Source: Bacteroidia bacterium
GTDB lineage: Bacteria > Bacteroidota > Bacteroidia > Flavobacteriales > Flavobacteriaceae
NCBI GenBank assembly: GCA_030427985.1
Contig: JAUIBH010000003.1
Span: 16,689-80,688, forward strand
Direction: 5' to 3'
DNA: 64,000 nt
The position numbers and the translations under genes are program-made. Below are positions 1 through 55,640 of the stretch, piece by piece. A model generated the notes under the pieces. It was not told the DNA's origin and did no database searches. It worked only from the letters and a program-made list of their open reading frames with translations. The stretch's first letter is position 1, and the number at the start of each line of letters is the position of its first letter.

Positions 1-1660
1 GTCGCAACACAATATTGGAAATGGCATACACATCCACGGGTGCTTTGGAAAGTTCAAGGTCTTGGTTTCTCAGTTTTGAAAAATCAAGGATATCGTTTAC
101 CAAATGGGAAAGACGTCTGCCACTATTGGCAATCATTTCTAAATTCTCAAGAGCTTCGCTTGGTAATTTTCCCGCCACGCCATCCTGCAAGGACTCCGTT
201 AGCCCAACAATGCCCACCAAAGGTGTACGCAGTTCGTGGGAGGTATTGGCAAGGAATTCATCTTTGAGTTTGTCAATTTTTTGGAGTTCGGCGACTCGTT
301 GCTTTTCAAGCTCTGTACGTTTTCGCTCTTCCAAAACGGCCCTTTGCTTCTCTTCTTCGGCTTGCTTGGCACGTTGTCCTTGTTTGTATCGATTAAAGGC
401 AAACCATAGAAAGAGTAGGGCAGCAGCGGAAATGCCAATAATGATGTTCCGTAGGGTCTTTTGCTGATTCAGTTTTAGGGTATTGATTTCAGCATCTTTT
501 TGGAGTGAGGCTATGGCATCCTGTTTCTTTTCAGTATCAAACCGGACTTGGAGCTCTTCAATTTGTTTGGACTTCTCTACATTGAAAAGACTATCCTTTA
601 TGGAAATAAACTGGTTCTTAAAAGCCAGAGCTTTTTCAAAATTGCCCGTACCCTCATAAATGGAGGAAAGGATTTTATAATTCTCCTGAAGCTGCTCCAG
701 TGCCCCAATTTCCTTTGCAATGGCAATCGCAGAATTGATATTCTGCTCAGCTTGGGCATAATTTCCCATTTCAAAATAAATGGCTCCTATTTGGGTATAA
801 CTCATGGATAGCTCCAAGCGCTGTCCCAACTTTTCCCGAAGTGACAATGCTTTTTTGTGGTAATCCAAAGCTTGTGGGTATAGCTTTTTATGCCCGTAGA
901 CTTTTCCCAAGGCCTCATAATCAAAAGCGATGCCCCATTCACTATGGGTCTCTTGGTCCAAGAGTAGTGCATCGTTAAAGTATTGAAGGGCAAGGTCATA
1001 ATTGTTTCGCAACAAGTGGGTATCTCCAATATTGAAAAGGCAATTGGCTATTTCGGTTTTATCACCCAAGTCTTGGAAGATGCTCAAAGCCTTTTGGTAG
1101 CTCTCCATGGCTTGGTCTATTTTTCCTGTCTTCTTCAAAATCTCACCCAGGGCATTCAGGGTAGTGGCAATGCTGAACGGGTCTTCATGTTCTTCGTAGA
1201 TTTTGAGGATGTCATAATAGATTTTCAGACTCTCATCATAATTCCCCAAATTGTCAAGAATAATGGCCTTTTGGTACAATCCATTGGCCATGGCAAACGG
1301 CTCTTTTTTAGTTTGTTCAAAATTCAGATATGCATCAATATAGGTCAGGGCCTTGCTGTAATTGCCGCGCTGTCTTTCAAGGACTGTGTATTGGTAATCC
1401 GCCATGGAAAGCCCCCAAGGTATATTGGCTTTTTTACTGATGGATTGAAAGCTATCTATGTGTTTTTTGGCCAATTCTGCATTGCCACGATTATTTAAAT
1501 ATTCCCAAGAAATATCTTTTAGTATACGTATTCGAAGTGAATCCGATTTTACAGTTGAATAGATTTCCTGAAGACTATCAATACGGCTCGTTTGCCCTTG
1601 CAATGTGTTCACAACAATGCATAGAAAGATCACTATGGAGGCTGACCGTTTGATGGATAT
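1..1660 (-). CDS. TPR-containing sensor histidine kinase (HisKA), 3' part cut by window edge
   Basis: Minus-strand reading gives a signal-peptide-like N-terminus, TPR-like repeats, a TM segment and '...KLKDEFLANTSHELRTPLVGIVGL...' (HisKA H-box). It is open at the left edge, so absent from the ORF track. Start uncertain (GTG at 1631-1633 or non-canonical ATA at 1658-1660). Confidence 0.85.
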   Translation of the reverse strand, partial: MSIKRSASIVIFLCIVVNTLQGQTSRIDSLQEIYSTVKSDSLRIRILKDISWEYLNNRGNAELAKKHIDSFQSISKKANIPWGLSMADYQYTVLERQRGNYSKALTYIDAYLNFEQTKKEPFAMANGLYQKAIILDNLGNYDESLKIYYDILKIYEEHEDPFSIATTLNALGEILKKTGKIDQAMESYQKALSIFQDLGDKTEIANCLFNIGDTHLLRNNYDLALQYFNDALLLDQETHSEWGIAFDYEALGKVYGHKKLYPQALDYHKKALSLREKLGQRLELSMSYTQIGAIYFEMGNYAQAEQNINSAIAIAKEIGALEQLQENYKILSSIYEGTGNFEKALAFKNQFISIKDSLFNVEKSKQIEELQVRFDTEKKQDAIASLQKDAEINTLKLNQQKTLRNIIIGISAAALLFLWFAFNRYKQGQRAKQAEEEKQRAVLEERKRTELEKQRVAELQKIDKLKDEFLANTSHELRTPLVGIVGLTESLQDGVAGKLPSEALENLEMIANSGRRLSHLVNDILDFSKLRNQDLELSKAPVDVYAISNIVLR

Positions 1661-1711
1661 GGTTTTAGGTTGATGTACAGTAAGTTAAATGTAGTGCATT
1701 AAAGCGTTCCC

Positions 1712-1742
1712 CACAAAAAAATAAACCCGCCTGAGCGGGTTT
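1712..1742 (-). terminator. Rho-independent terminator downstream of DoxX gene
   Basis: Minus strand AAACCCGC-TCAG-GCGGGTTT followed by a T-rich tract. Confidence 0.75.
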
Positions 1743-1771
1743 GCTTAAGATATTTTTGTAGTTAAATTTGG

Positions 1772-2194
1772 TTATTGCTGCATTTTCAGATAATAGTCCA
1801 CCGAATGTTTTCCAGACCCATAAAGGACAAAGAAGATACAGGCAAAAAATACAATCAAGGCCGTGATAAGATTGGACAGGTGCATTACGCCCAAAAAATT
1901 GGTCAAAATAGCACCCAACAAAATGGGCAGCTGTGCAAAGACGGCCCATCGGGTAAGTAAACCCACCACAATCAGAAATCCGCCTACAAAATGAGCAGGA
2001 GCCACATAGTGCAGAATAATCATGCCGCCCGGCATTTCTTGAAAGGGCCTCACCATCTCTGACATTTGTTCATAATTGGTCATGAACTCAATGCCTTTGA
2101 TAAAAAGGAACACCCCAAGAGCAACCCGTAAAAGATCCAAAGGATAATAAGTGTGGGCATTGGCCCATTTGTTCAAGTTTTTAACTGTTCCCAT
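1772..2194 (-). CDS. DoxX family membrane protein
   Basis: 140 aa, four hydrophobic segments, DoxX-like pattern (LRVALGVFLFIKGIEF, APAHFVGGFLIVVGLLTRWA). Confidence 0.75.
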   Translation of the reverse strand: MGTVKNLNKWANAHTYYPLDLLRVALGVFLFIKGIEFMTNYEQMSEMVRPFQEMPGGMIILHYVAPAHFVGGFLIVVGLLTRWAVFAQLPILLGAILTNFLGVMHLSNLITALIVFFACIFFVLYGSGKHSVDYYLKMQQ

Positions 2195-2337
2195 GGTTTT
2201 TGAATTTAAAATTCACACTATAATATACTCATTTTTAGTTAAGTATGAAAATAGCGACCATCAAAAAAGAACAGTCTGTAATGCAGTCAGTCATTTTTGG
2301 GCTTACGGATGCCAAGCTTCCCACTTTAGGGATGCAG

Positions 2338-2817
2338 TTAAGCGGGGGAGAGAACCAATTCCATCTGAATATCACTGCGCTCATAAGGGGAAGTTGCGCC
2401 AACAACCTCTCTAAAACCTAATTTTTGATAAAGATGTAAGGCAGGTTTTAAAATTCGGTTGCTCTCCAAATACAATTTTTTGGCGCCCATAGCTTTGGCT
2501 TTTTCCACCATGTGCTGACCCAAAAGTTTGCCAATTCCTCTTCCTTGGACTTTGGGAGAAACGCCCATTTTGGCCAATTCAAAATCATATGCTTCATGAA
2601 CACTGGGAATTAGGGCACATACACCAACGGGCGTGGAGTTTAGTAAGGCCACAGCAATGTAACCACCTTTATCCAGAATGTACTCCTTGGGATGGTTCAA
2701 GGAAACCCGATCCATTTCTTCCATTTTAAAGTATTTTACAATCCATTCTTCATTAAGTGACCTAAAGTCAGCAGCATACGTATCAGAATAGGGAACTATG
2801 ACTATTGGGTTATCCAT
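2338..2817 (-). CDS. GNAT family N-acetyltransferase
   Basis: 159 aa with acetyl-CoA binding motif VSPKVQGRGIGKLLGQHMVEKAKAMGAKKLYLESN. Confidence 0.85.
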   Translation of the reverse strand: MDNPIVIVPYSDTYAADFRSLNEEWIVKYFKMEEMDRVSLNHPKEYILDKGGYIAVALLNSTPVGVCALIPSVHEAYDFELAKMGVSPKVQGRGIGKLLGQHMVEKAKAMGAKKLYLESNRILKPALHLYQKLGFREVVGATSPYERSDIQMELVLSPA

Positions 2818-3113
2818 GGGAAAAGCATTTGAATCAAGAATAGCACAAAATTAGTCGGATTGAATAAAAAAGATAACAGGTAACTCGCTCTTTTCTAGCG
2901 AAAACACCCAATTTTTTTTGGTTAATTACGTTAACTTAAAAAGTGGGCTGGTTTTTCAACGAAAAAATTAGCTCTTTAACGAGAAAATACTTAAGATTGT
3001 ACAGTATTTAAGTAATAAAACTCTTACAAGTTCCCAAATCTTGCTAATGAGACCAAATCAAAAATACCTGTCTAACCCCAGCAGGCCAGTTAACCTACAA
3101 ATTCCAATCGGCT

Positions 3114-4886
3114 ATGGATATAAAACTACCTTTATTTTCCAAATACATAACCTTGTTCTCATTTGAACGGGTTTTTTATTTGGTTTTATGTTGCTTTTTA
3201 CTGGGCCCAGTGGTTCATTCCCAGGACAGTAATCCCTATGTTACGTACAATGTTCCGTTTCAAAATTTGCTGAAATTTAACCGATTTTTGATCAACCCTA
3301 CCTTTTCTTCGGTCAGGGAAGACAAATCGTATGTGAATTTATTCCATAGAAGTCAGAGCGCAGATTTTGACAACAACAGTCAGAATTATTTTTTGAGCTA
3401 CAGTGGCCAGATAAACGATAAGATAGGTTTAGGATTTAGTCTGTACAATCAGCAAGATGGGGTAATCTCAAACCTAGGGGTAATGGCCAATTATGCACAC
3501 GGTATTCAATTGGGGAGGGAGAGCAGTCTCACCTTTGGGGTCAATATTCCCTATTATGTGAGTGGATTTGACCCTGATAGAGCGGTAGCGATGGAGGAGG
3601 ACCCTGTACTCAATGATACCCCCAAGAACTCTATTATTTCATTTCAACCTGGGCTGAACCTTTCTGTTGGTAAGTTTGATTTTGGCGTGTTTGCCCATAA
3701 CTTATTGGATTATAATATGAGTTCTGGAAAATCTTTGACAGACCTGAACCAAAAAACATTCTCCGGACACATTCAATTTGCCCAAGAATTTAAAAATGGT
3801 TCCGGAATTTTTGAAGATGGCCGGTTGTTGCCCTTGGCCCGAGTACGATTGGAGGGTGAAGAGGATCCCATTTTTGGTGGCGGTATCATTTTGGATCTCC
3901 CCAAGTTGGGCTGGATTCAAGGCGGATACGATCAGTTTTACGGAGCTTCGGCTGGTACAGGTTTCAATCTTAACCGCAGACTATCTTTTGGATACAACTT
4001 TGAGAAAAACCTGAATAACGACTTCATAAACTTGGGAGTAACGCACGAAATATCAATCGCTTATTCCTTTGTCCCCATGATGGCCAAGAATATTATGGTG
4101 AACAATGAGGATGACCCTAAAGCTCCAAAACCCATTGAGGGTGGGCTGGTGGCAGACACCAAAAAGGAAAAGAAAGAGAAAAAGGGCAAGTTGGATGTTG
4201 ATACTACTTTGCGCCCGACCAATAAAGAGGATTTGGCGTTTTGGGAAGAGCAAATCGCAATTCTAAAAGCCCAACAAGAAGATAGCCACGCTGTAATTGA
4301 CGAATTGCTTTTTAAAATGGACTCGATGGAGCAGAGTCGCCAAAAGGAGCTTGAAAAGCGATTTGAAATGGTGATGCGGATGGTAAAACGCCAAACGGAT
4401 GACAAACACCCTGATGTTGAAGCCAAAGCAGAGGAATTGTATTTTGCCAACAGTGAAGATTTGGACTCCGTTTACAATTCCATTGAAAAGAAACGCTTAG
4501 CGGATAACTCAACCGTTACCAAAAAAGAGGTTCCAGAGAAAAAAGGAACATTCAATGGTGGAGCCTACAAACCCATTGAAAAATTCATCAGTTTAGATGG
4601 AGTGGGAAAGGGGCATTACATTGTGGCCAATGTATTTAAAAATGAAAATTACCTTAAAAGTTTCATGGCCAAACTCAAGGCGCAGGGGCTAAATCCGCAG
4701 TATTTTAAAAACCCTGAGAACGGTCTCAATTATGTCTACTTGGCCAAGTACGATGAAAATACAGAGGCGTATGCCGCTTATCAATCCAAAATGAAAGGGG
4801 AATACAAAGATGAAATCTGGATCATGCATGTGGACAATCCCCGATATTCCAATTGGGCGGATGCCATTTTCCAAGATATTGAATAG
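3114..4886 (+). CDS. PorP/SprF family type IX secretion membrane protein with C-terminal SPOR-like region
   Basis: 590 aa. N-terminal beta-barrel typical of PorP/SprF (NRFLINPTFSSVREDKSYVNLFHRSQ), coiled/charged linker, C-terminal SPOR-like segment (GKGHYIVANVFKNENYLKSFMAKLKAQGLNPQYF). Confidence 0.8.
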   Translation: MDIKLPLFSKYITLFSFERVFYLVLCCFLLGPVVHSQDSNPYVTYNVPFQNLLKFNRFLINPTFSSVREDKSYVNLFHRSQSADFDNNSQNYFLSYSGQINDKIGLGFSLYNQQDGVISNLGVMANYAHGIQLGRESSLTFGVNIPYYVSGFDPDRAVAMEEDPVLNDTPKNSIISFQPGLNLSVGKFDFGVFAHNLLDYNMSSGKSLTDLNQKTFSGHIQFAQEFKNGSGIFEDGRLLPLARVRLEGEEDPIFGGGIILDLPKLGWIQGGYDQFYGASAGTGFNLNRRLSFGYNFEKNLNNDFINLGVTHEISIAYSFVPMMAKNIMVNNEDDPKAPKPIEGGLVADTKKEKKEKKGKLDVDTTLRPTNKEDLAFWEEQIAILKAQQEDSHAVIDELLFKMDSMEQSRQKELEKRFEMVMRMVKRQTDDKHPDVEAKAEELYFANSEDLDSVYNSIEKKRLADNSTVTKKEVPEKKGTFNGGAYKPIEKFISLDGVGKGHYIVANVFKNENYLKSFMAKLKAQGLNPQYFKNPENGLNYVYLAKYDENTEAYAAYQSKMKGEYKDEIWIMHVDNPRYSNWADAIFQDIE

Positions 4887-20029: not shown

Positions 20030-20773
20030 ATGAGACTAAAACATATAACATATTTAATGGCCCTGATGCTAACCTTAGGTTTGGCAACAGCATGTAGTAA
20101 TGACGATGAATCTCCAGACTATAGCGGTATGAATGATGACATGATGATGGACGATGACATGATGATGGATGACGATGACATGATGGGAACCGATTTTACA
20201 GGAACCTATGCCCAGGTTGATCATTTAGGTCGTCCCGGAATCAATACAACCCTTAGCTTTGACATGGAGGGAGAACCCAGCGTGAAAGATGCGCACAACA
20301 CTACTATTCCATCTGAAATGGGAACTACTTTCCAAGTAGGTTTTCAGGCTAGATTGGAACAATATCATGATGTGTACGCTCTTAAATTAGGCCTTGATCC
20401 TGCAGATGTGGACTATGAGAACAACATTTTAGGACTGGATGCAGCAACACTTACTACGGTGTTGGCTGCAGATGTCTTGGAAGTGGCCCCAGATTTACCC
20501 ACTACATATTTTGACCCGGGCACGGATTTTGACAACGACGGCAGAATATTGGTGCCAGATGGTGATGAAGTGGCCCTTACGGGCAGACATCCCAATGATG
20601 ATATTATCGACGTTTCACTCATTTTGTTCTTCGGCGGGGCGGAGGGTGACCGTTTTAGTGGTCAGGATTTAGATGACGACGGAATGGCGGATTTGCCAAG
20701 GCTCACCTCAGATGGGGTTGGACTTACAGCAAATATATCAACAACTTTCCCTTATTTGGGAGATCCTGAGTAA
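20030..20773 (+). CDS. DUF4331-like lipoprotein, C-terminal half
   Basis: 247 aa; lipobox (LGLATAC), Asp/Met-rich linker, 'YAQVDHLGRPGINTTLSF' as in the second half of DUF4331 proteins. Confidence 0.75.
   Translation: MRLKHITYLMALMLTLGLATACSNDDESPDYSGMNDDMMMDDDMMMDDDDMMGTDFTGTYAQVDHLGRPGINTTLSFDMEGEPSVKDAHNTTIPSEMGTTFQVGFQARLEQYHDVYALKLGLDPADVDYENNILGLDAATLTTVLAADVLEVAPDLPTTYFDPGTDFDNDGRILVPDGDEVALTGRHPNDDIIDVSLILFFGGAEGDRFSGQDLDDDGMADLPRLTSDGVGLTANISTTFPYLGDPE
20135..20185 (+). repeat. In-frame tandem repeat encoding Asp/Met-rich linker
   Basis: GATGACATGATGATGGAC / GATGACATGATGATGGAT / GACGATGACATGATG (18-bp units). Confidence 0.8.
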
Positions 20774-49354: not shown

Positions 49355-51160
49355 TTAGTCGAAGGTATACCCGTTATCTGCGGCTACTTTATCCGCAATT
49401 TGGGTGCGGAGTGCTACAACATTGGGTTGATTTGTATATTTCGTGAAACGTTTTAGCCCCATCAGCATCATGCGTTGTTCATCGCCTTCGGTGAAGGAAA
49501 CAATCGCTTCTTTCCCCTTTTGGTTTACAATATCCACAGCTCTGTACAAGTAAAGCTTGGCCATGGCAATCTGTGTCGCTTGTGCCTCTTCACCAAATCG
49601 TTTAGCGTTTTTCTCGGCACGAAGGATGGTGGATTCTGCCAGATACACCTGAATCAATATATCTGCCGCTGACATTAATAGCATCTGATGCTCTTCCAAG
49701 TCAGGTCCGTATTTTTGAACCGCTTTCCCTGCGATCATCAAAAATACTTTTTTCAAGCGGGCCACCATATCTTTTTCCTCAGAAAGCAAAGCTGAGAAAT
49801 CAGGAGTATCAAAAGAAGGAATACCCATCAGTTCCTCACCAACAGCTGTAGCAGGGCCTAATAAATCCACATGGCCTTTCATGGCCTTTTTCACCAACAT
49901 GCCCACAGACAACATTCTGTTGATTTCGTTGGTTCCTTCATAAATTCTTGAAATACGGGCATCACGCCAAGCAGATTCCATAGGAGTATCGGCACTAAAG
50001 CCCATTCCGCCAAAAATTTGGATACCCTCGTCTGTGGTGTGCTGTACATGCTCGGAAACGGCCACTTTCAAGATGGAACATTCAATGGCATATTCCTCAA
50101 CACCTTTTAACTCTGCTTCTTGGTGGGAGTTACCACTGGCTTCTCGAATAGCGATTCTGTCCTCGATATTTTTCGCAGCACGGTAACACGCAGATTCATC
50201 CACATAAGCGTTGGTGGCCATATCCGCAATTTTTGCTTTGATGGCCCCAAAATTCATAATCGGTGTTTTAAACTGTACCCGTTCATTGGCATATTTGCTG
50301 GCTTCATTCAGAACACGTCTTTGAGCCTCTAAACAGGCAGCCGCTAATTTTATTCTACCAATATTTAGGGCGTTCATAGCAATTTTAAACCCATTACCTC
50401 TTTCCGATAACATATTTTCTATGGGAACTTTGGTCTCATTGAAGAATACTTGTCGGGTAGAGGAGGAGTGAATACCTAATTTTTTCTCTTCATCTCCAAA
50501 GGAAATGCCGTTTTCTGGGTCATTCTCCACAATAAAACCGGTGATGTACTTATCATCCTCAATTCGGGCGAACACAATGAACATATTGCAGAATCCAGCG
50601 TTTGAAATCCACATTTTCTGTCCCGTGATGCTATAGTATTTTCCATCTTCGGATAAAACTGCTTTGGTCTTTCCTGAATTGGCATCGGAACCAGCTCCGG
50701 GTTCCGTTAAACAATAGGCCCCAAACCATTCACCTGAAGCCAATTTGGGCACATATTTCTGTTTTTGCTCTTCGGTTCCATATAAGGTAATCGGCATCGT
50801 CCCGATTCCTGTGTGCGCCCCAAAAGCCGTACTGAACGAACCAGTTGCTCCTGAGATATAATCACACACCAGCATGGTAGAGACAAAGCCCATTCCCATA
50901 CCGCCATACGCTTCAGGAACAGCGACACTCAAAAGCCCCAGTTCACCTGCTTTCCGCATGCATTCTTCGGTATAGGCATAGTCTTTTTTCTCAAAACGTT
51001 CCCAGTGGGCCCAAAGCTCACGATCTACAAATTCCTTGGTACTTTCGCGCATCATTTTTTGCTCTTCATTGAGGTCCTCCAGGGTGAATACGTCTTCACA
51101 CTTGGTTTCCTTGACCAAAAATTGGCCGCCTCGTAATATTTCTTTTTCTGCTGTTTCCAT
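49355..51160 (-). CDS. Acyl-CoA dehydrogenase family protein
   Basis: 601 aa; 'YCLTEPGAGSDANSGKTKA', 'GIQIFGGMGFSADTPMESAWRDARISRIYEGTNEINRM'. Confidence 0.96.
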   Translation of the reverse strand: METAEKEILRGGQFLVKETKCEDVFTLEDLNEEQKMMRESTKEFVDRELWAHWERFEKKDYAYTEECMRKAGELGLLSVAVPEAYGGMGMGFVSTMLVCDYISGATGSFSTAFGAHTGIGTMPITLYGTEEQKQKYVPKLASGEWFGAYCLTEPGAGSDANSGKTKAVLSEDGKYYSITGQKMWISNAGFCNMFIVFARIEDDKYITGFIVENDPENGISFGDEEKKLGIHSSSTRQVFFNETKVPIENMLSERGNGFKIAMNALNIGRIKLAAACLEAQRRVLNEASKYANERVQFKTPIMNFGAIKAKIADMATNAYVDESACYRAAKNIEDRIAIREASGNSHQEAELKGVEEYAIECSILKVAVSEHVQHTTDEGIQIFGGMGFSADTPMESAWRDARISRIYEGTNEINRMLSVGMLVKKAMKGHVDLLGPATAVGEELMGIPSFDTPDFSALLSEEKDMVARLKKVFLMIAGKAVQKYGPDLEEHQMLLMSAADILIQVYLAESTILRAEKNAKRFGEEAQATQIAMAKLYLYRAVDIVNQKGKEAIVSFTEGDEQRMMLMGLKRFTKYTNQPNVVALRTQIADKVAADNGYTFD

Positions 51161-51172
51161 TTTTATTAAGAT

Positions 51173-51199
51173 TTAAGAAGATAGAAAATAGAGGAAAGA
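51173..51199. repeat. 3'-side arm of imperfect inverted repeat enclosing IVP gene 1
   Basis: TTAAGAAGATAGAAAATAGAGGAAAGA on +; pairs with 51576..51603 (7 bp + 16 of 18 bp). Confidence 0.75.
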
Positions 51200-51200
51200 C

Positions 51201-51554
51201 TTATTTCAAACCGTTTTGAAACCCCATAGTCATTTTTTGCCATTCTTCTAATTTATCTTCAAGGATATTTAAAGTTTTAGGATTAATATAATTTCGATGT
51301 TTTGCAATTAGCAGTTGTGTTCCGAGTTCAAAGGATGACCCTAAAGCCACATCTATAAAATGCTTAAAGGATTTATCCGTTCTTGAAGATCCTTCAGCAA
51401 TATTGCTCGGCATTGAAATTGAACATCTGCTTATTTGTGAGCTTAGATCATATCGTTCATGTTTCGGAAAATTAATGAGCAAATCAGAAATGTCATTTGC
51501 AATCTCTAATCCGAGCGACCAAATTTTCAACCTTTTATAGTTGTGCCTTTTCAT
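51201..51554 (-). CDS. Four-helix-bundle protein (S23 / 23S rRNA intervening-sequence protein family)
   Basis: 117 aa; 'RLKIWSLGLEIANDISDLLINFPKHERYDLSSQISRCSISMPSNIAEGSSR' typical of the S23/IVP family. Confidence 0.92.
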   Translation of the reverse strand: MKRHNYKRLKIWSLGLEIANDISDLLINFPKHERYDLSSQISRCSISMPSNIAEGSSRTDKSFKHFIDVALGSSFELGTQLLIAKHRNYINPKTLNILEDKLEEWQKMTMGFQNGLK

Positions 51555-51575
51555 CGGGCTGTCTTTTTTCTCTAC

Positions 51576-51603
51576 TCTTTCCTCTCTATTCTAAAGTTCT
51601 TAA
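51576..51603. repeat. 5'-side arm of imperfect inverted repeat enclosing IVP gene 1
   Basis: TCTTTCCTCTCTATTCTAAAGTTCTTAA on +; overlaps the thiolase stop codon. Confidence 0.75.
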
Positions 51604-52793
51604 GATAGAAACTCGTATATCCCCGCTGCGCCTTGTCCTGTACCCACGCACATGGTTACCATCCCGTATTTTCCTTTCATATCGCGTTTGCGCATTTCAT
51701 CAAAGAGCTGAACGGACAATTTCGCTCCGGTACAACCCAACGGATGCCCCAATGCAATGGCCCCACCATTTACATTCACGATTTCTGGGTCCAAGCCCAA
51801 TTCACGGATAACGGCCAAGGATTGGGAAGCAAAGGCTTCGTTCAATTCGATGAGTTCCACATCATTTTGTTGTAATCCAGCTTGTTTTAAGGCTTTTGGA
51901 ATGGCTTTTACAGGGCCAATTCCCATGATTCGTGGTTCAACGCCTGCTGCCGCATAGTTCACCAAACGGGCAATGGGTTCCAGATTCAATTCTTTCACCA
52001 TTTCTTCACTCATGACCATGACAAAAGCGGCACCATCACTCATTTGCGAGGAATTTCCTGCCGTAACGCTGCCTCCAGCGGCAAAAACAGGTCGCAACTT
52101 GTTCAATGTAGGAATGTTAGTGTCTTTTCGAGGCCCCTCATCCTTGTTTACGGTGTAGTTCTTGGTTTCTTTATTGCCAGCTTCGTTCACAAAAGTGTGC
52201 TCCACCTCAATAGGAACAATTTGGTCTTGGAACCGATTTTCTTCTTGGGCCTTTAATGCTTTCATGTGGGAATTGTAGGCAAATACATCTTGATCTTCGC
52301 GTGAAACCTTAAATTGTTTTGCTACGGCTTCGGCTGTAAGTCCCATACCCCAATAGTAATCTTCATGTCCCTCCTTGGCGGTGGCATAATCTGGGGTAGG
52401 TTTGTAACCACCCATGGGAATGTAGCTCATACTTTCCGCACCTCCAGCAATGATACAATCCGCCATTCCAGATTGAATTTTCGCAGTTGCAATGCCAATG
52501 GTTTCCAATCCCGAGGCACAATACCGGTTGACGGTCACGCCAGGAACATCTTCGATATCCAATCCCATTAAGGAGATGAGTCGGGCCATATTTAAACCTT
52601 GCTCGGCTTCTGGCATGGCGTTGCCCACAATGACATCATCGATACGTTTTTTATCGAGTTGGGGCAATTCCTTCATCATGTATTCGATGGTCTCCGCGGC
52701 CAGTTCATCCGGTCTTTTGAATCGGAACAAACCTCGTGGTGCCTTACCCACTGCGGTTCTGTATGCTTTTACGATATATGCTGTTTTGTTCAT
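51600..52793 (-). CDS. Acetyl-CoA C-acyltransferase (thiolase)
   Basis: 397 aa; 'VNRYCASGLETIGIATAKI', 'NVNGGAIALGHPLGCTGAK', 'YGMVTMCVGTGQGAAGIYE'. Confidence 0.96.
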   Translation of the reverse strand: MNKTAYIVKAYRTAVGKAPRGLFRFKRPDELAAETIEYMMKELPQLDKKRIDDVIVGNAMPEAEQGLNMARLISLMGLDIEDVPGVTVNRYCASGLETIGIATAKIQSGMADCIIAGGAESMSYIPMGGYKPTPDYATAKEGHEDYYWGMGLTAEAVAKQFKVSREDQDVFAYNSHMKALKAQEENRFQDQIVPIEVEHTFVNEAGNKETKNYTVNKDEGPRKDTNIPTLNKLRPVFAAGGSVTAGNSSQMSDGAAFVMVMSEEMVKELNLEPIARLVNYAAAGVEPRIMGIGPVKAIPKALKQAGLQQNDVELIELNEAFASQSLAVIRELGLDPEIVNVNGGAIALGHPLGCTGAKLSVQLFDEMRKRDMKGKYGMVTMCVGTGQGAAGIYEFLS

Positions 52794-52806
52794 ATTTTAT
52801 AAATTA

Positions 52807-52842
52807 TTTGGAATCTAGAATCTAGAAGACTGGAGTTTAGAC
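52807..52842. repeat. 3'-side arm of imperfect inverted repeat enclosing IVP gene 2
   Basis: TTTGGAATCTAGAATCTAGAAGACTGGAGTTTAGAC on +; pairs with 53204..53232. Confidence 0.75.
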
Positions 52843-53201
52843 TAATCTTTCAGATTGTCAATAAACTTGCCCAACATTTTTTGAATTTGTAGTATTTTAT
52901 TTTCCAATTCTTTGAAATCGTTTTTATTTAAATATCCTTCGTTAAAAGAAACTATTAATTGAGTTTCCCATTCGAAGGCTGAACCGAGACTATTTTCTAA
53001 AAACTTTTTAAAGTGTCTGTCAGTACTTTTGCTGGAACCTTCCGAAATATTTGAAGGTATGGATACAGCACACCTGTTCATTTGACTTACAAGATTGAAC
53101 CGTTCAAAATCCGGAAAAGTTCTTGTTAATTTATAGCTGTCTTTCACAAATGCAATACCATCTTGCCAAACCTTTAATTTTTTAAAATTGTGTCTTGCCA
53201 T
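52842..53201 (-). CDS. Four-helix-bundle protein (S23 / 23S rRNA intervening-sequence protein family)
   Basis: 119 aa; 'KLKVWQDGIAFVKDSYKLTRTFPDFERFNLVSQMNRCAVSIPSNISEGSSK'. Confidence 0.92.
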   Translation of the reverse strand: MARHNFKKLKVWQDGIAFVKDSYKLTRTFPDFERFNLVSQMNRCAVSIPSNISEGSSKSTDRHFKKFLENSLGSAFEWETQLIVSFNEGYLNKNDFKELENKILQIQKMLGKFIDNLKD

Positions 53202-53203
53202 TT

Positions 53204-53232
53204 GTCTAATTTCTAGGTTCTAGCTGTCCAAA
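53204..53232. repeat. 5'-side arm of imperfect inverted repeat enclosing IVP gene 2
   Basis: GTCTAATTTCTAGGTTCTAGCTGTCCAAA on +. Confidence 0.75.
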
Positions 53233-53234
53233 AT

Positions 53235-55640
53235 CTAATTTCTTAGCGGTTTCCCAGTTTTCAACATGTGCTGGATGCGCTCCAAAGTCTTCCGTTCTGT
53301 ACATAGCGAAAGGAATGCTTCCCGCTCTAAATCCAACAAGTATTGTTCGCTTACATAATTGGCTTCGGATAAATCACCTCCGGCCATTACATAGGCCAGT
53401 TTGTCGGCAATTTTCTTGTCGTGCTCTGAAATATAGTGTCCAGCTTCCATGGAATCGGTTCCTACTAAGAACATTCCAAGTGCCTGTTTACCCAAAACCT
53501 TCACATCTTTTCGTGGTATTGGTTTGGTGTATCCTGCTTCCGCCAATAATTTGGCATACGCCTTGGCGGTAGCAATTTGTCGGTCTTTGTTCACGACCAC
53601 CACATCTTTTCCTTTTTGCAGGATGCCCAAATCAAAGGCTTCATAAGCGGATGTGGACACTTTGGCCATACCGATGGTCAAGAAGTACTCCTGCAACACA
53701 TTCAATTCGACATCATTTTTTTGGAAGGTATCTGATGCACGAAGCGTCATTTCCTTGGAACCACCACCACCGGGAATGACCCCAACGCCAAATTCCACCA
53801 ATCCAATGTAGGTTTCTGCGGCTGCGACCACTTTGTCGGCATGCATGGAAAGCTCACAACCACCTCCCAAACACATGCCATGTGGGGCTGAAACCGCTGG
53901 GATGGATGAGTAGCGCATCCGCATCATGGTATCTTGAAAGTATTTGATGGCCATGTTCAACTCATCGTATTCTTGTTCCACCGCCATCATGAAAATCATT
54001 CCGATGTTAGCACCAACAGAAAAGTTGGCTGCTTGGTTTCCAACCACCAATCCTTGAAAATCCTTTTCGGCCAGGTCAACTGCTTTGTTCAATCCGGCCA
54101 ACACATCACCGCCAATGGTGTTCATTTTGGATTGGAATTCACAGTTCAATATGCCATCACCCAAATCCTCGATGACCACACCGCTGTTTTTGAACACTTC
54201 ATTGGACTTTCTAATGTTGTCCAAAATGATGAAGGCATCCTGACCCGGAACTTTTTCCATGGCCTTTTTTGGTATATCATAAAAGTAAGTGGCACCGTCT
54301 TTTACGGTGTAGAAGGAATCAACTCCTGCCGCCTTCATTTCCGAAATCCAAGGGGCAGCTTCCAAACCTTCGGCCTTAATGAATTCCAAACCTTTGTCCA
54401 GTCCGACAGCATCCCAAATCTGGAATGGACCATGCTCCCAGCCGAATCCAGCTTTCATGGCGTCATCAATCTTGTAAAGTTCGTCCGTGACTTCTGGAAT
54501 ACGATGGGTGACGTAAGCAAACAGCGCCCCGAAACTTTTTCGATAAAATTCTCCCGCCTTATCTTTTCCACCCACCAAGATAGGAAATCTATCGATGACC
54601 TTATCAATAGTCTTGGTAAGCTCCAATGTGGCGAATTTTGCACTCTTTTTGGCTCGATAATCCATCGAGTCCAAATCCAACGTGAGGATTTCGCTCTTAC
54701 CATCATCGCCCTTAACTTTTTTATAGAAACCTTGTCCGGTTTTGCTTCCCAACCATTTGTTTTCCATCATGGTATTGATGAAATCGGGCAGTTGGAATAG
54801 TTCATGGCGCTCATCATCCTTACAGTTTTCACTGATACCGTTGGCCACATGCACCAAAGTGTCCAATCCAACCACATCAACGGTACGGAAGGTGGCGGAT
54901 TTTGGTCGGCCAATTACTGGCCCCGTAAGCTTGTCAACCTCTTCTACCGTCATGTCCATTTCTTTTACGGCATGGAACAAACTCTGAATGCTAAAAATCC
55001 CGATACGGTTACCAATAAAGGCAGGGGTATCTTTGGCCACCACCGAAGTTTTACCTAAATATTGTTCACCGTAGCTGTTCAAAAATTCCAACACTTCCGG
55101 GGAAGTTTCAGGTCCGGGGATGATTTCAAAGAGTTTCAGATACCGAGGCGGGTTAAAGAAGTGGGTTCCGCAGAAATGTTCCTTGAAATCCTGACTTCTG
55201 CCTTCACTCATGAACTTAATGGGGATGCCCGAAGTATTGGAAGTGATGAGCGTACCCGGAGTTCTATATTTTTCCAAGTTTTCAAAAACTTGTTTTTTGA
55301 TGTCCAACCGCTCCACGACCACCTCAATAATCCAATCCACTTTGGAGACTTTGGAAATATCATCCTCCAAATTTCCGGTTGTGATTCGGTTTGCAAATTT
55401 TTGATGGTAAATGGGGGAGGGTTTTGATTTTAATGCTGCGGCCAACGCATCGTTCACCAATCGGTTGCGAACCACTTTATCCTCCAAGGTCAGCCCCTTG
55501 GACTTTTCCTTTTCGGTGAGTTCCCTCGGTACAATATCCAGCAATAAAACCTCGACACCGATATTGGCAAAATGGCAGGCAATGCCACTTCCCATGATAC
55601 CAGAACCGATAACGGCAACTTTGTTGATATGCCTTTTCAT
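53235..55640 (-). CDS. 3-hydroxyacyl-CoA dehydrogenase/enoyl-CoA hydratase family protein
   Basis: 801 aa; N-terminal NAD-binding 'VAVIGSGIMGSGIACHFANIGVEVLLLDI', C-terminal crotonase 'APHGMCLGGGCELSMHADKVVAAAETYIGLVEFGVGVIPGGGGSKEM'. Confidence 0.96.
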   Translation of the reverse strand: MKRHINKVAVIGSGIMGSGIACHFANIGVEVLLLDIVPRELTEKEKSKGLTLEDKVVRNRLVNDALAAALKSKPSPIYHQKFANRITTGNLEDDISKVSKVDWIIEVVVERLDIKKQVFENLEKYRTPGTLITSNTSGIPIKFMSEGRSQDFKEHFCGTHFFNPPRYLKLFEIIPGPETSPEVLEFLNSYGEQYLGKTSVVAKDTPAFIGNRIGIFSIQSLFHAVKEMDMTVEEVDKLTGPVIGRPKSATFRTVDVVGLDTLVHVANGISENCKDDERHELFQLPDFINTMMENKWLGSKTGQGFYKKVKGDDGKSEILTLDLDSMDYRAKKSAKFATLELTKTIDKVIDRFPILVGGKDKAGEFYRKSFGALFAYVTHRIPEVTDELYKIDDAMKAGFGWEHGPFQIWDAVGLDKGLEFIKAEGLEAAPWISEMKAAGVDSFYTVKDGATYFYDIPKKAMEKVPGQDAFIILDNIRKSNEVFKNSGVVIEDLGDGILNCEFQSKMNTIGGDVLAGLNKAVDLAEKDFQGLVVGNQAANFSVGANIGMIFMMAVEQEYDELNMAIKYFQDTMMRMRYSSIPAVSAPHGMCLGGGCELSMHADKVVAAAETYIGLVEFGVGVIPGGGGSKEMTLRASDTFQKNDVELNVLQEYFLTIGMAKVSTSAYEAFDLGILQKGKDVVVVNKDRQIATAKAYAKLLAEAGYTKPIPRKDVKVLGKQALGMFLVGTDSMEAGHYISEHDKKIADKLAYVMAGGDLSEANYVSEQYLLDLEREAFLSLCTERKTLERIQHMLKTGKPLRN

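Follow-up and report, generated by a model that had tools for sequence, protein, structure and literature searches.

The 64,000-nt stretch of a Flavobacteriaceae genome analyzed here (contig JAUIBH010000003.1; hereafter the window) carries, on its minus strand, a fad operon in which the genes for 3-hydroxyacyl-CoA dehydrogenase/enoyl-CoA hydratase (HADH/ECH), thiolase and acyl-CoA dehydrogenase follow one another, with one S23/IVP gene at each junction. We found that each of these small genes lies within inverted heptanucleotide arms, forming the elements J1 (HADH/thiolase junction) and J2 (thiolase/acyl-CoA dehydrogenase junction). Both are probably copies of one class of homing-like S23 element, of the intervening sequence (IVS) type, that is resident in mRNAs. 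Sequence comparisons established the common anatomy of these elements, their 7-nt period, the better fit of arms to their own partner than to swapped ones, and an arm sequence that follows the S23 lineage. The same comparisons established strong purifying selection on the open reading frame (ORF) and co-directional placement in Bacteroidota, and they showed that the fad junctions are polymorphic, turn over and exchange elements laterally. S23 elements are a real, widespread and under-recognized class, an IVS kind that lives in mRNAs and is linked across phyla by its heptamers. A function as fad regulator is not supported.

Both window genes are ORFs on the minus strand: J1 (52803..53232) encodes a 119-aa S23 protein at 52842..53201, and J2 (51173..51603) one of 117 aa at 51201..51554. 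The family assignment made in the initial annotation proved sound, as PF05635 (125 and 102 bits for J1 and J2; curated cut-off 33.8) and TIGR02436 (115 and 91 bits; cut-off 24) matched far above their thresholds. The two proteins share 45% identity. The arms that enclose the genes consist of imperfect heptanucleotide repeats, as exemplified by GAATCTA in the period-7 array at 52811-52827. In J1, the 5′ arm (TTTTGGACAGCTAGAACCTAGAAATTAGACA; 53203..53242, minus strand) extends across the HADH stop codon and stops 1 nt short of the S23 start codon. Its 3′ counterpart (TCTAAACTCCAGTCTTCTAGATTCTAGATTCCAAA; 52800..52843, minus strand) overlaps the stop codon of S23. In J2, the 5′ arm (AGAATAGAGAGGAAAGAGTAGAG type; 51573..51613, minus strand) overlaps the thiolase stop codon, with the 3′ arm (GTCTTTCCTCTATTTTCTATCTTCTTAAATCTT) at 51152..51202 on the same strand. 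Across the two elements, 1–18 nt separate the 5′ arm from the start of the S23 gene, and the 3′ arm either overlaps the end of that gene or comes after it. The immediate flanks of each gene form a duplex of ∼30 bp (z −3.8 for J1 and −3.1 for J2 against dinucleotide shuffles), which in J2 includes an inverted-repeat core of 18 nt with 89% complementarity (51182-51199/51576-51593). The proposal that each gene is enclosed by an imperfect inverted repeat of its own was therefore confirmed, and the two stems are indeed unrelated in primary sequence. The ends also paired in both minimum free energy (MFE) folds of the whole elements, at modest z-scores of −1.35 (7/100 shuffles as good) and −2.25 (4/100). 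The structural signal of the window elements resides in their arms, not in the whole-element fold; whole-element MFE was dropped as weak evidence, and tests of own versus swapped arms were used instead.

S23 genes were common among relatives of the window's genome, which itself holds 11: at least one was present in 59 of the 61 genomes surveyed in the genus (0–15 copies each) and in 153 of the 198 sampled Bacteroidota genomes. To describe their anatomy, we used 216 S23 copies collected with their flanks. Autocorrelation of the arms at lag 7 was 0.41 on the 5′ side and 0.45 on the 3′ side over a baseline of 0.30, with further peaks at lags 14 and 21, and 57–63% of the copies exceeded the 95th percentile of ordinary genes from the window and 400 kb of a congener. 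The controls were genes >300 nt away from any S23 gene, plus independent DNA. Arms also fitted their own partner best: in 93 non-redundant elements, 46 own pairs reached an arm-alignment score of at least 30, compared to 4.6 expected with swapped arms, and pairing energies were likewise tested for own versus swapped arms. The median span of elements with a duplex z below −2 was 463 nt. While the layout was common to all lineages, no arm sequence was common to different ones. Nevertheless, S23 pairs at non-homologous loci with 50–70% protein identity shared an excess of arm 5-mers (z 4.5; 0/1000 permutations), which was far larger above 70% identity (z 10.8). DNA 150–200 nt farther out showed no such lineage-linked sharing (z −0.3 and −0.4), and no link between arm and protein was found below 50% S23 identity. 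Furthermore, both neighbors were co-directional with the S23 gene for 201 of 211 elements (95%), compared to 343 of 430 (80%) same-strand single adjacent control pairs.

These features bear on the idea that S23 is an ordinary host gene whose arms are functionless products of polymerase slippage or template switching in AT-rich intergenic DNA. Template switching would match arms to each other without selection at the RNA level, as the lack of excess G·U pairs described below permits. It has also been suggested that heptanucleotide repeats originate through polymerase activity (cited in PMC4679880), and orphan arrays do occur away from S23 genes. However, within the same genomes, period 7 sets the flanks of S23 apart from those of other genes, and arm sequence keeps following the S23 lineage from locus to locus at levels of identity for which neutral DNA would be saturated. 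Together with two observations reported below, the movement of an element without its flanks and the weakness of ORF-less hairpins in genomes with few S23 genes, this makes a mutational by-product quite unlikely.

To our knowledge, no function is known for S23/IVP proteins. The AlphaFold model of the J1 protein (predicted local distance difference test score 93.9) is a four-helix bundle, which Foldseek matched to 2gsc (template modeling (TM) score 0.93). The family is characterized by a homopentameric ring, and 2gsc and 2rld each contain five chains. Both window proteins are basic, with isoelectric points of 9.2 and 9.3. Foldseek further matched the J1 protein to Avd (4dwl, TM score 0.77) and to reverse transcriptase (RT) complexes of diversity-generating retroelements (DGRs), such as 8ub7. 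Avd is the accessory variability determinant, an RT-associated protein of DGRs. S23 thus resembles Avd in fold and, via phrog_3206, weakly in sequence, but it differs in that no template/variable repeat has been described for it and in that one window copy scored 24 bits with the DivGenRetAVD profile, below the cut-off of 80, with no listed match for the other. The check for an adjacent RT was confined to the immediate neighbors of the window genes, which are the fad genes. The ratio of nonsynonymous to synonymous substitution (dN/dS) of the S23 ORF was 0.03–0.10 in most pairs, including 0.03–0.08 for the J2 lineage E described below, indicating strong purifying selection and therefore that the protein matters. 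We detected no PADLOC match that would associate S23 with defense. Carriage by phages was considered and rejected, as none of 50,697 phage records matched; 23 loci lay in viral contigs.

Both junctions turned over among the 60 genomes of the genus that we compared, one of which was the window's own. An S23 element was present at J1 in 22 genomes; 37 had an empty or short (stem-only) site, and 1 was unscored. J2 held an element in 27 genomes and was empty or short in 31, with 1 more scored as partial and 1 unscored. Scattered over the thiolase tree were at least four S23 lineages at J1 (A–D) and at least five at J2 (E–I), non-orthologous at the same site. Synonymous divergence (pS) within J1 lineage A was only 0.03–0.30, compared to 0.27–0.76 in the last 100 HADH codons and 0.22–0.76 in the first 100 thiolase codons. 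For the pair L012/L013, for example, pS was 0.73 in HADH, 0.26 in S23 and 0.64 in thiolase. Divergence in lineage A is thus far below that of the adjoining coding DNA on either side, and the most likely reason is that this element passed from species to species unaccompanied by its flanks. J2 lineage E showed no lowered pS relative to its flanks, so slow synonymous change is not a general property of S23 genes. On the protein tree, the 22 loci required 34 changes where the minimum is 21, with 8 for the fad junctions alone (minimum-change counts only). The behavior that emerges is homing-like, with strong site fidelity, repeated gain, loss and exchange, and rare change of site. In two congeners, the S23 ORFs at J2 were disrupted while the arms were still recognizable (L026 and L036), possibly representing decaying elements. 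One congener had the HADH/thiolase junction filled by a 178-aa non-S23 ORF (L034), and in six others no intergenic gap between HADH and thiolase was measured (L022, L025, L027, L030, L032 and L035).

The same survey argues against the suggestion that the elements serve specifically to split or tune the fad transcript, with RNase III cleavage at the stems setting the expression ratios of HADH, thiolase and acyl-CoA dehydrogenase. Stems of ∼30 bp are in principle good RNase III substrates, and the IVS of Coxiella is cut in its stem (PMC4990558). S23 genes occupy fad junctions in many Bacteroidota genera, although this is partly because the query came from fad junctions. The ORFs are under purifying selection, and the stem-only hairpins at J1 covary. 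Still, the sites were occupied in fewer than half of the congeners, by unrelated S23 lineages, and the same elements occur in many other, unrelated operons and on plasmids. Sense-strand G·U pairs were not in excess. In addition, the target of selection is the protein, whereas a regulator acting purely as RNA could do without one. We consider such a regulator unlikely.

Presence/absence polymorphism, terminal inverted repeats, short ORF-less derivatives and occasional antisense insertions would also suit a small DNA transposon, similar to a miniature inverted-repeat transposable element (MITE), that depends on some transposase acting in trans and carries S23 as passenger or accessory. Indeed, MITEs and repetitive extragenic palindromic (REP) repeats are likewise short intergenic inverted repeats. 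However, the heptamer arms of S23 elements are particular to each lineage, and we know of no transposase that tolerates inverted repeats differing in every lineage. The elements encode S23 rather than a transposase, and neither hallmark of an insertion sequence or MITE, a transposase of its own or terminal inverted repeats common to the copies, was found in these elements. Strong locus fidelity and the lack of a recognizable target-site duplication, for which the divergence of empty congener sites precludes exact comparison, further make a transposon of this type very unlikely.

Many of the 'empty' J1 sites in fact held an ORF-less hairpin of 47–83 nt with heptad arms (z down to −5.9). Eight of these mini-hairpins, of the GGAT type, covaried with a score of 0.318, compared to 0.150 ± 0.027 after shuffling (0/500 as high) and at most 0.126 for slid alignments. 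CAAGA-type mini-hairpins showed no covariation. The expectation that stems are conserved around S23 genes and covary was thus borne out by the ORF-less J1 stems and by the superior pairing of own over swapped arms, and the proposed counter-observation, equally good pairing of shuffled flanks, was not made. Genomes with 0–2 S23 genes had weaker J1 hairpins (n = 5, mean z −0.61) than genomes richer in S23 (n = 28, mean z −2.61; p = 0.001 without phylogenetic correction), which provides a lead that S23 acts in trans.

The analogy to rRNA intervening sequences drawn initially goes beyond resemblance. The 23S IVS of Coxiella burnetii is 428 nt long, contains an S23 ORF described as decaying, and carries 2–3 GACAGAT heptamers, variable in number between strains, directly before the S23p ATG; RNase III cuts it in the stem, at the first heptamer repeat (PMC4990558). 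The window elements agree with it in size (∼430 nt), in the S23 ORF in the loop, in complementary borders and in sporadic occurrence among relatives, and S23 elements here likewise have heptamers in tandem immediately before the start of the S23 gene. They differ in having an intact ORF on which purifying selection is strong. Moreover, because the window copies are located between fad genes, in intergenic junctions of a protein operon and not in an rRNA gene, we classify them as IVS-like and not as rRNA IVSs; Rfam detected no rRNA in L012. A connection came from an Azospirillum lipoferum plasmid (L310), where an S23 gene with heptad-like arms lies inside a 23S rRNA gene (298-3342, by Rfam) in a region for which the PLSDB gene table lists no features.

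Heptamers also link S23 to Cyanobacteria, from which most plasmid-borne S23 genes came. Many of these genes lay inside inverted heptamers of the short tandemly repeated repetitive (STRR) type, such as GGGAGTA/TACTCCC, GGGAACA/TGTTCCC, GGGTGTA/TACACCC and CAATTCG/CGAATTG, and the lag-7 autocorrelation of the (mostly cyanobacterial) plasmid arms was 0.44/0.48. An S23 gene of Gemmatirosa was accompanied by CTCCTGC arrays. In 265 kb of Nostoc plasmid, we counted 16 period-7 arrays, compared to at most 4 for any other period from 4 to 13; 4 of the 16 flanked S23 genes, and 8 of the remaining 12 had an inverted partner nearby. STRRs are 7-bp repeats that form hairpins in intergenic regions, one example being the hupS–hupL interval, and are described as having no known function (PMC2670836). 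With their imperfect heptads, S23 arms are similarly heptanucleotide-based, intergenic, hairpin-forming and found inside operons, but they enclose an S23 gene, whereas STRRs were described without a gene. The TAACTGA heptamers of Beggiatoaceae, Cyanobacteria and some Bacteroidetes, for which no mechanism was given (PMC4679880), are comparable in forming arrays just upstream of start codons and in their patchy, horizontal distribution. They differ in being mostly direct repeats of one unit, and S23 genes are not mentioned in that article. In a search of largely open-access literature, we found no paper that links S23 genes to such heptamer repeats in general. The S23 package may explain the long-puzzling cyanobacterial repeats. 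Individual insertions included S23 elements antisense between nrdB and nrdA on a Nostoc plasmid (L241, 1501-1869) and between two secretion genes in Calothrix (L242, 1495-1875). On cyanobacterial plasmids, S23 genes also occurred within CRISPR operons, in the orders cas10-S23-cmr3 and cas6-S23-cas4 (L301, 1492-1848; L304, 1498-1866; L306, 1507-1866), where they look like passengers.

Several observations weigh against a homing-like class of mRNA-resident elements. The arms of full J2 elements showed little covariation (1/14 pairs), and stem mismatches contained no excess of sense-strand G·U over the composition-matched expectation. The data therefore do not distinguish selection on the sense RNA stem from an inverted repeat that matters in the DNA, and the arms could equally be DNA-level ends. 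About one-quarter of the elements had neither clear heptads nor a strong duplex, and some cyanobacterial copies were antisense to their operon. S23 lineages were mostly locked to one locus, so free transposition must be rare, and we saw no insertion event with a defined target-site duplication, given that empty sites in congeners are too diverged for exact comparison. In the window elements, S23 is the sole ORF, with no transposase or nuclease gene alongside it. Finally, the low pS of lineage A could in part reflect constraint on synonymous sites, though this was absent in lineage E. An apparent excess of A·C mismatches was also considered as a strand signal; it is accounted for by base composition and supports neither the RNA level nor the opposite strand.

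The model of a homing-like element comprises a unit of ∼430–465 nt in which an S23/IVP gene, encoding an Avd-like four-helix protein that is usually basic, sits directly within two inverted heptad arms whose repeat unit varies from element to element. Within rRNA genes, the same unit constitutes the classical S23-bearing intervening sequence; here it occupies intergenic junctions of protein operons. Its behavior resembles that of a homing element: faithful to one junction, gained and lost between species, exchanged laterally without its flanks, and able to shrink to an ORF-less heptamer mini-hairpin. S23 may recognize its own arms and be needed for maintenance or mobility, possibly together with a host polymerase or an RT. 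Once transcribed, the arms would form a ∼30-bp stem that RNase III could cut, separating the mRNA into cistrons; by analogy with Coxiella, such processing of S23-element stems is plausible. Because the junction is untranslated, cutting would do little harm, which would explain why intergenic sites are tolerated. Most hairpins of the cyanobacterial STRR type might then be derivatives that lack S23.

A bolder possibility, which we put forward tentatively, is that each S23 lineage reads, and perhaps writes, a heptad code of its own. Every S23 protein would bind the heptads of the arms around its gene and, together with host factors, would create, maintain and home the elements. If so, STRRs and the heptamers of Bacteroidota would be ends or S23-less derivatives of a single cross-phylum class of IVS-type mobile elements, of which rRNA intervening sequences would be a special case. 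Inverted heptamers around S23 genes in two phyla, as well as the copies in 23S rRNA, merge two puzzles, the function of S23 and the heptamer repeats, into one testable question. The S23 genes in cas10/S23/cmr3, cas6/S23/cas4, nrdB/S23/nrdA and the fad operon are likely passengers, for which inference of function from gene neighborhood would mislead.

The fad genes hosting J1 and J2 were each identified as an ORF with a profile match on the minus strand: HADH/ECH at 53235..55640, thiolase at 51600..52793 and acyl-CoA dehydrogenase at 49355..51160. Elsewhere, an S23 element lay between two separately encoded parts of methionine synthase (metH) at three loci (L077, L111 and L073), a possible insertion near a domain boundary. 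The window also contains a period-21 tandem repeat (GATGACATGATGATGGATGAC) at 20131-20190 that has no relation to the S23 elements.
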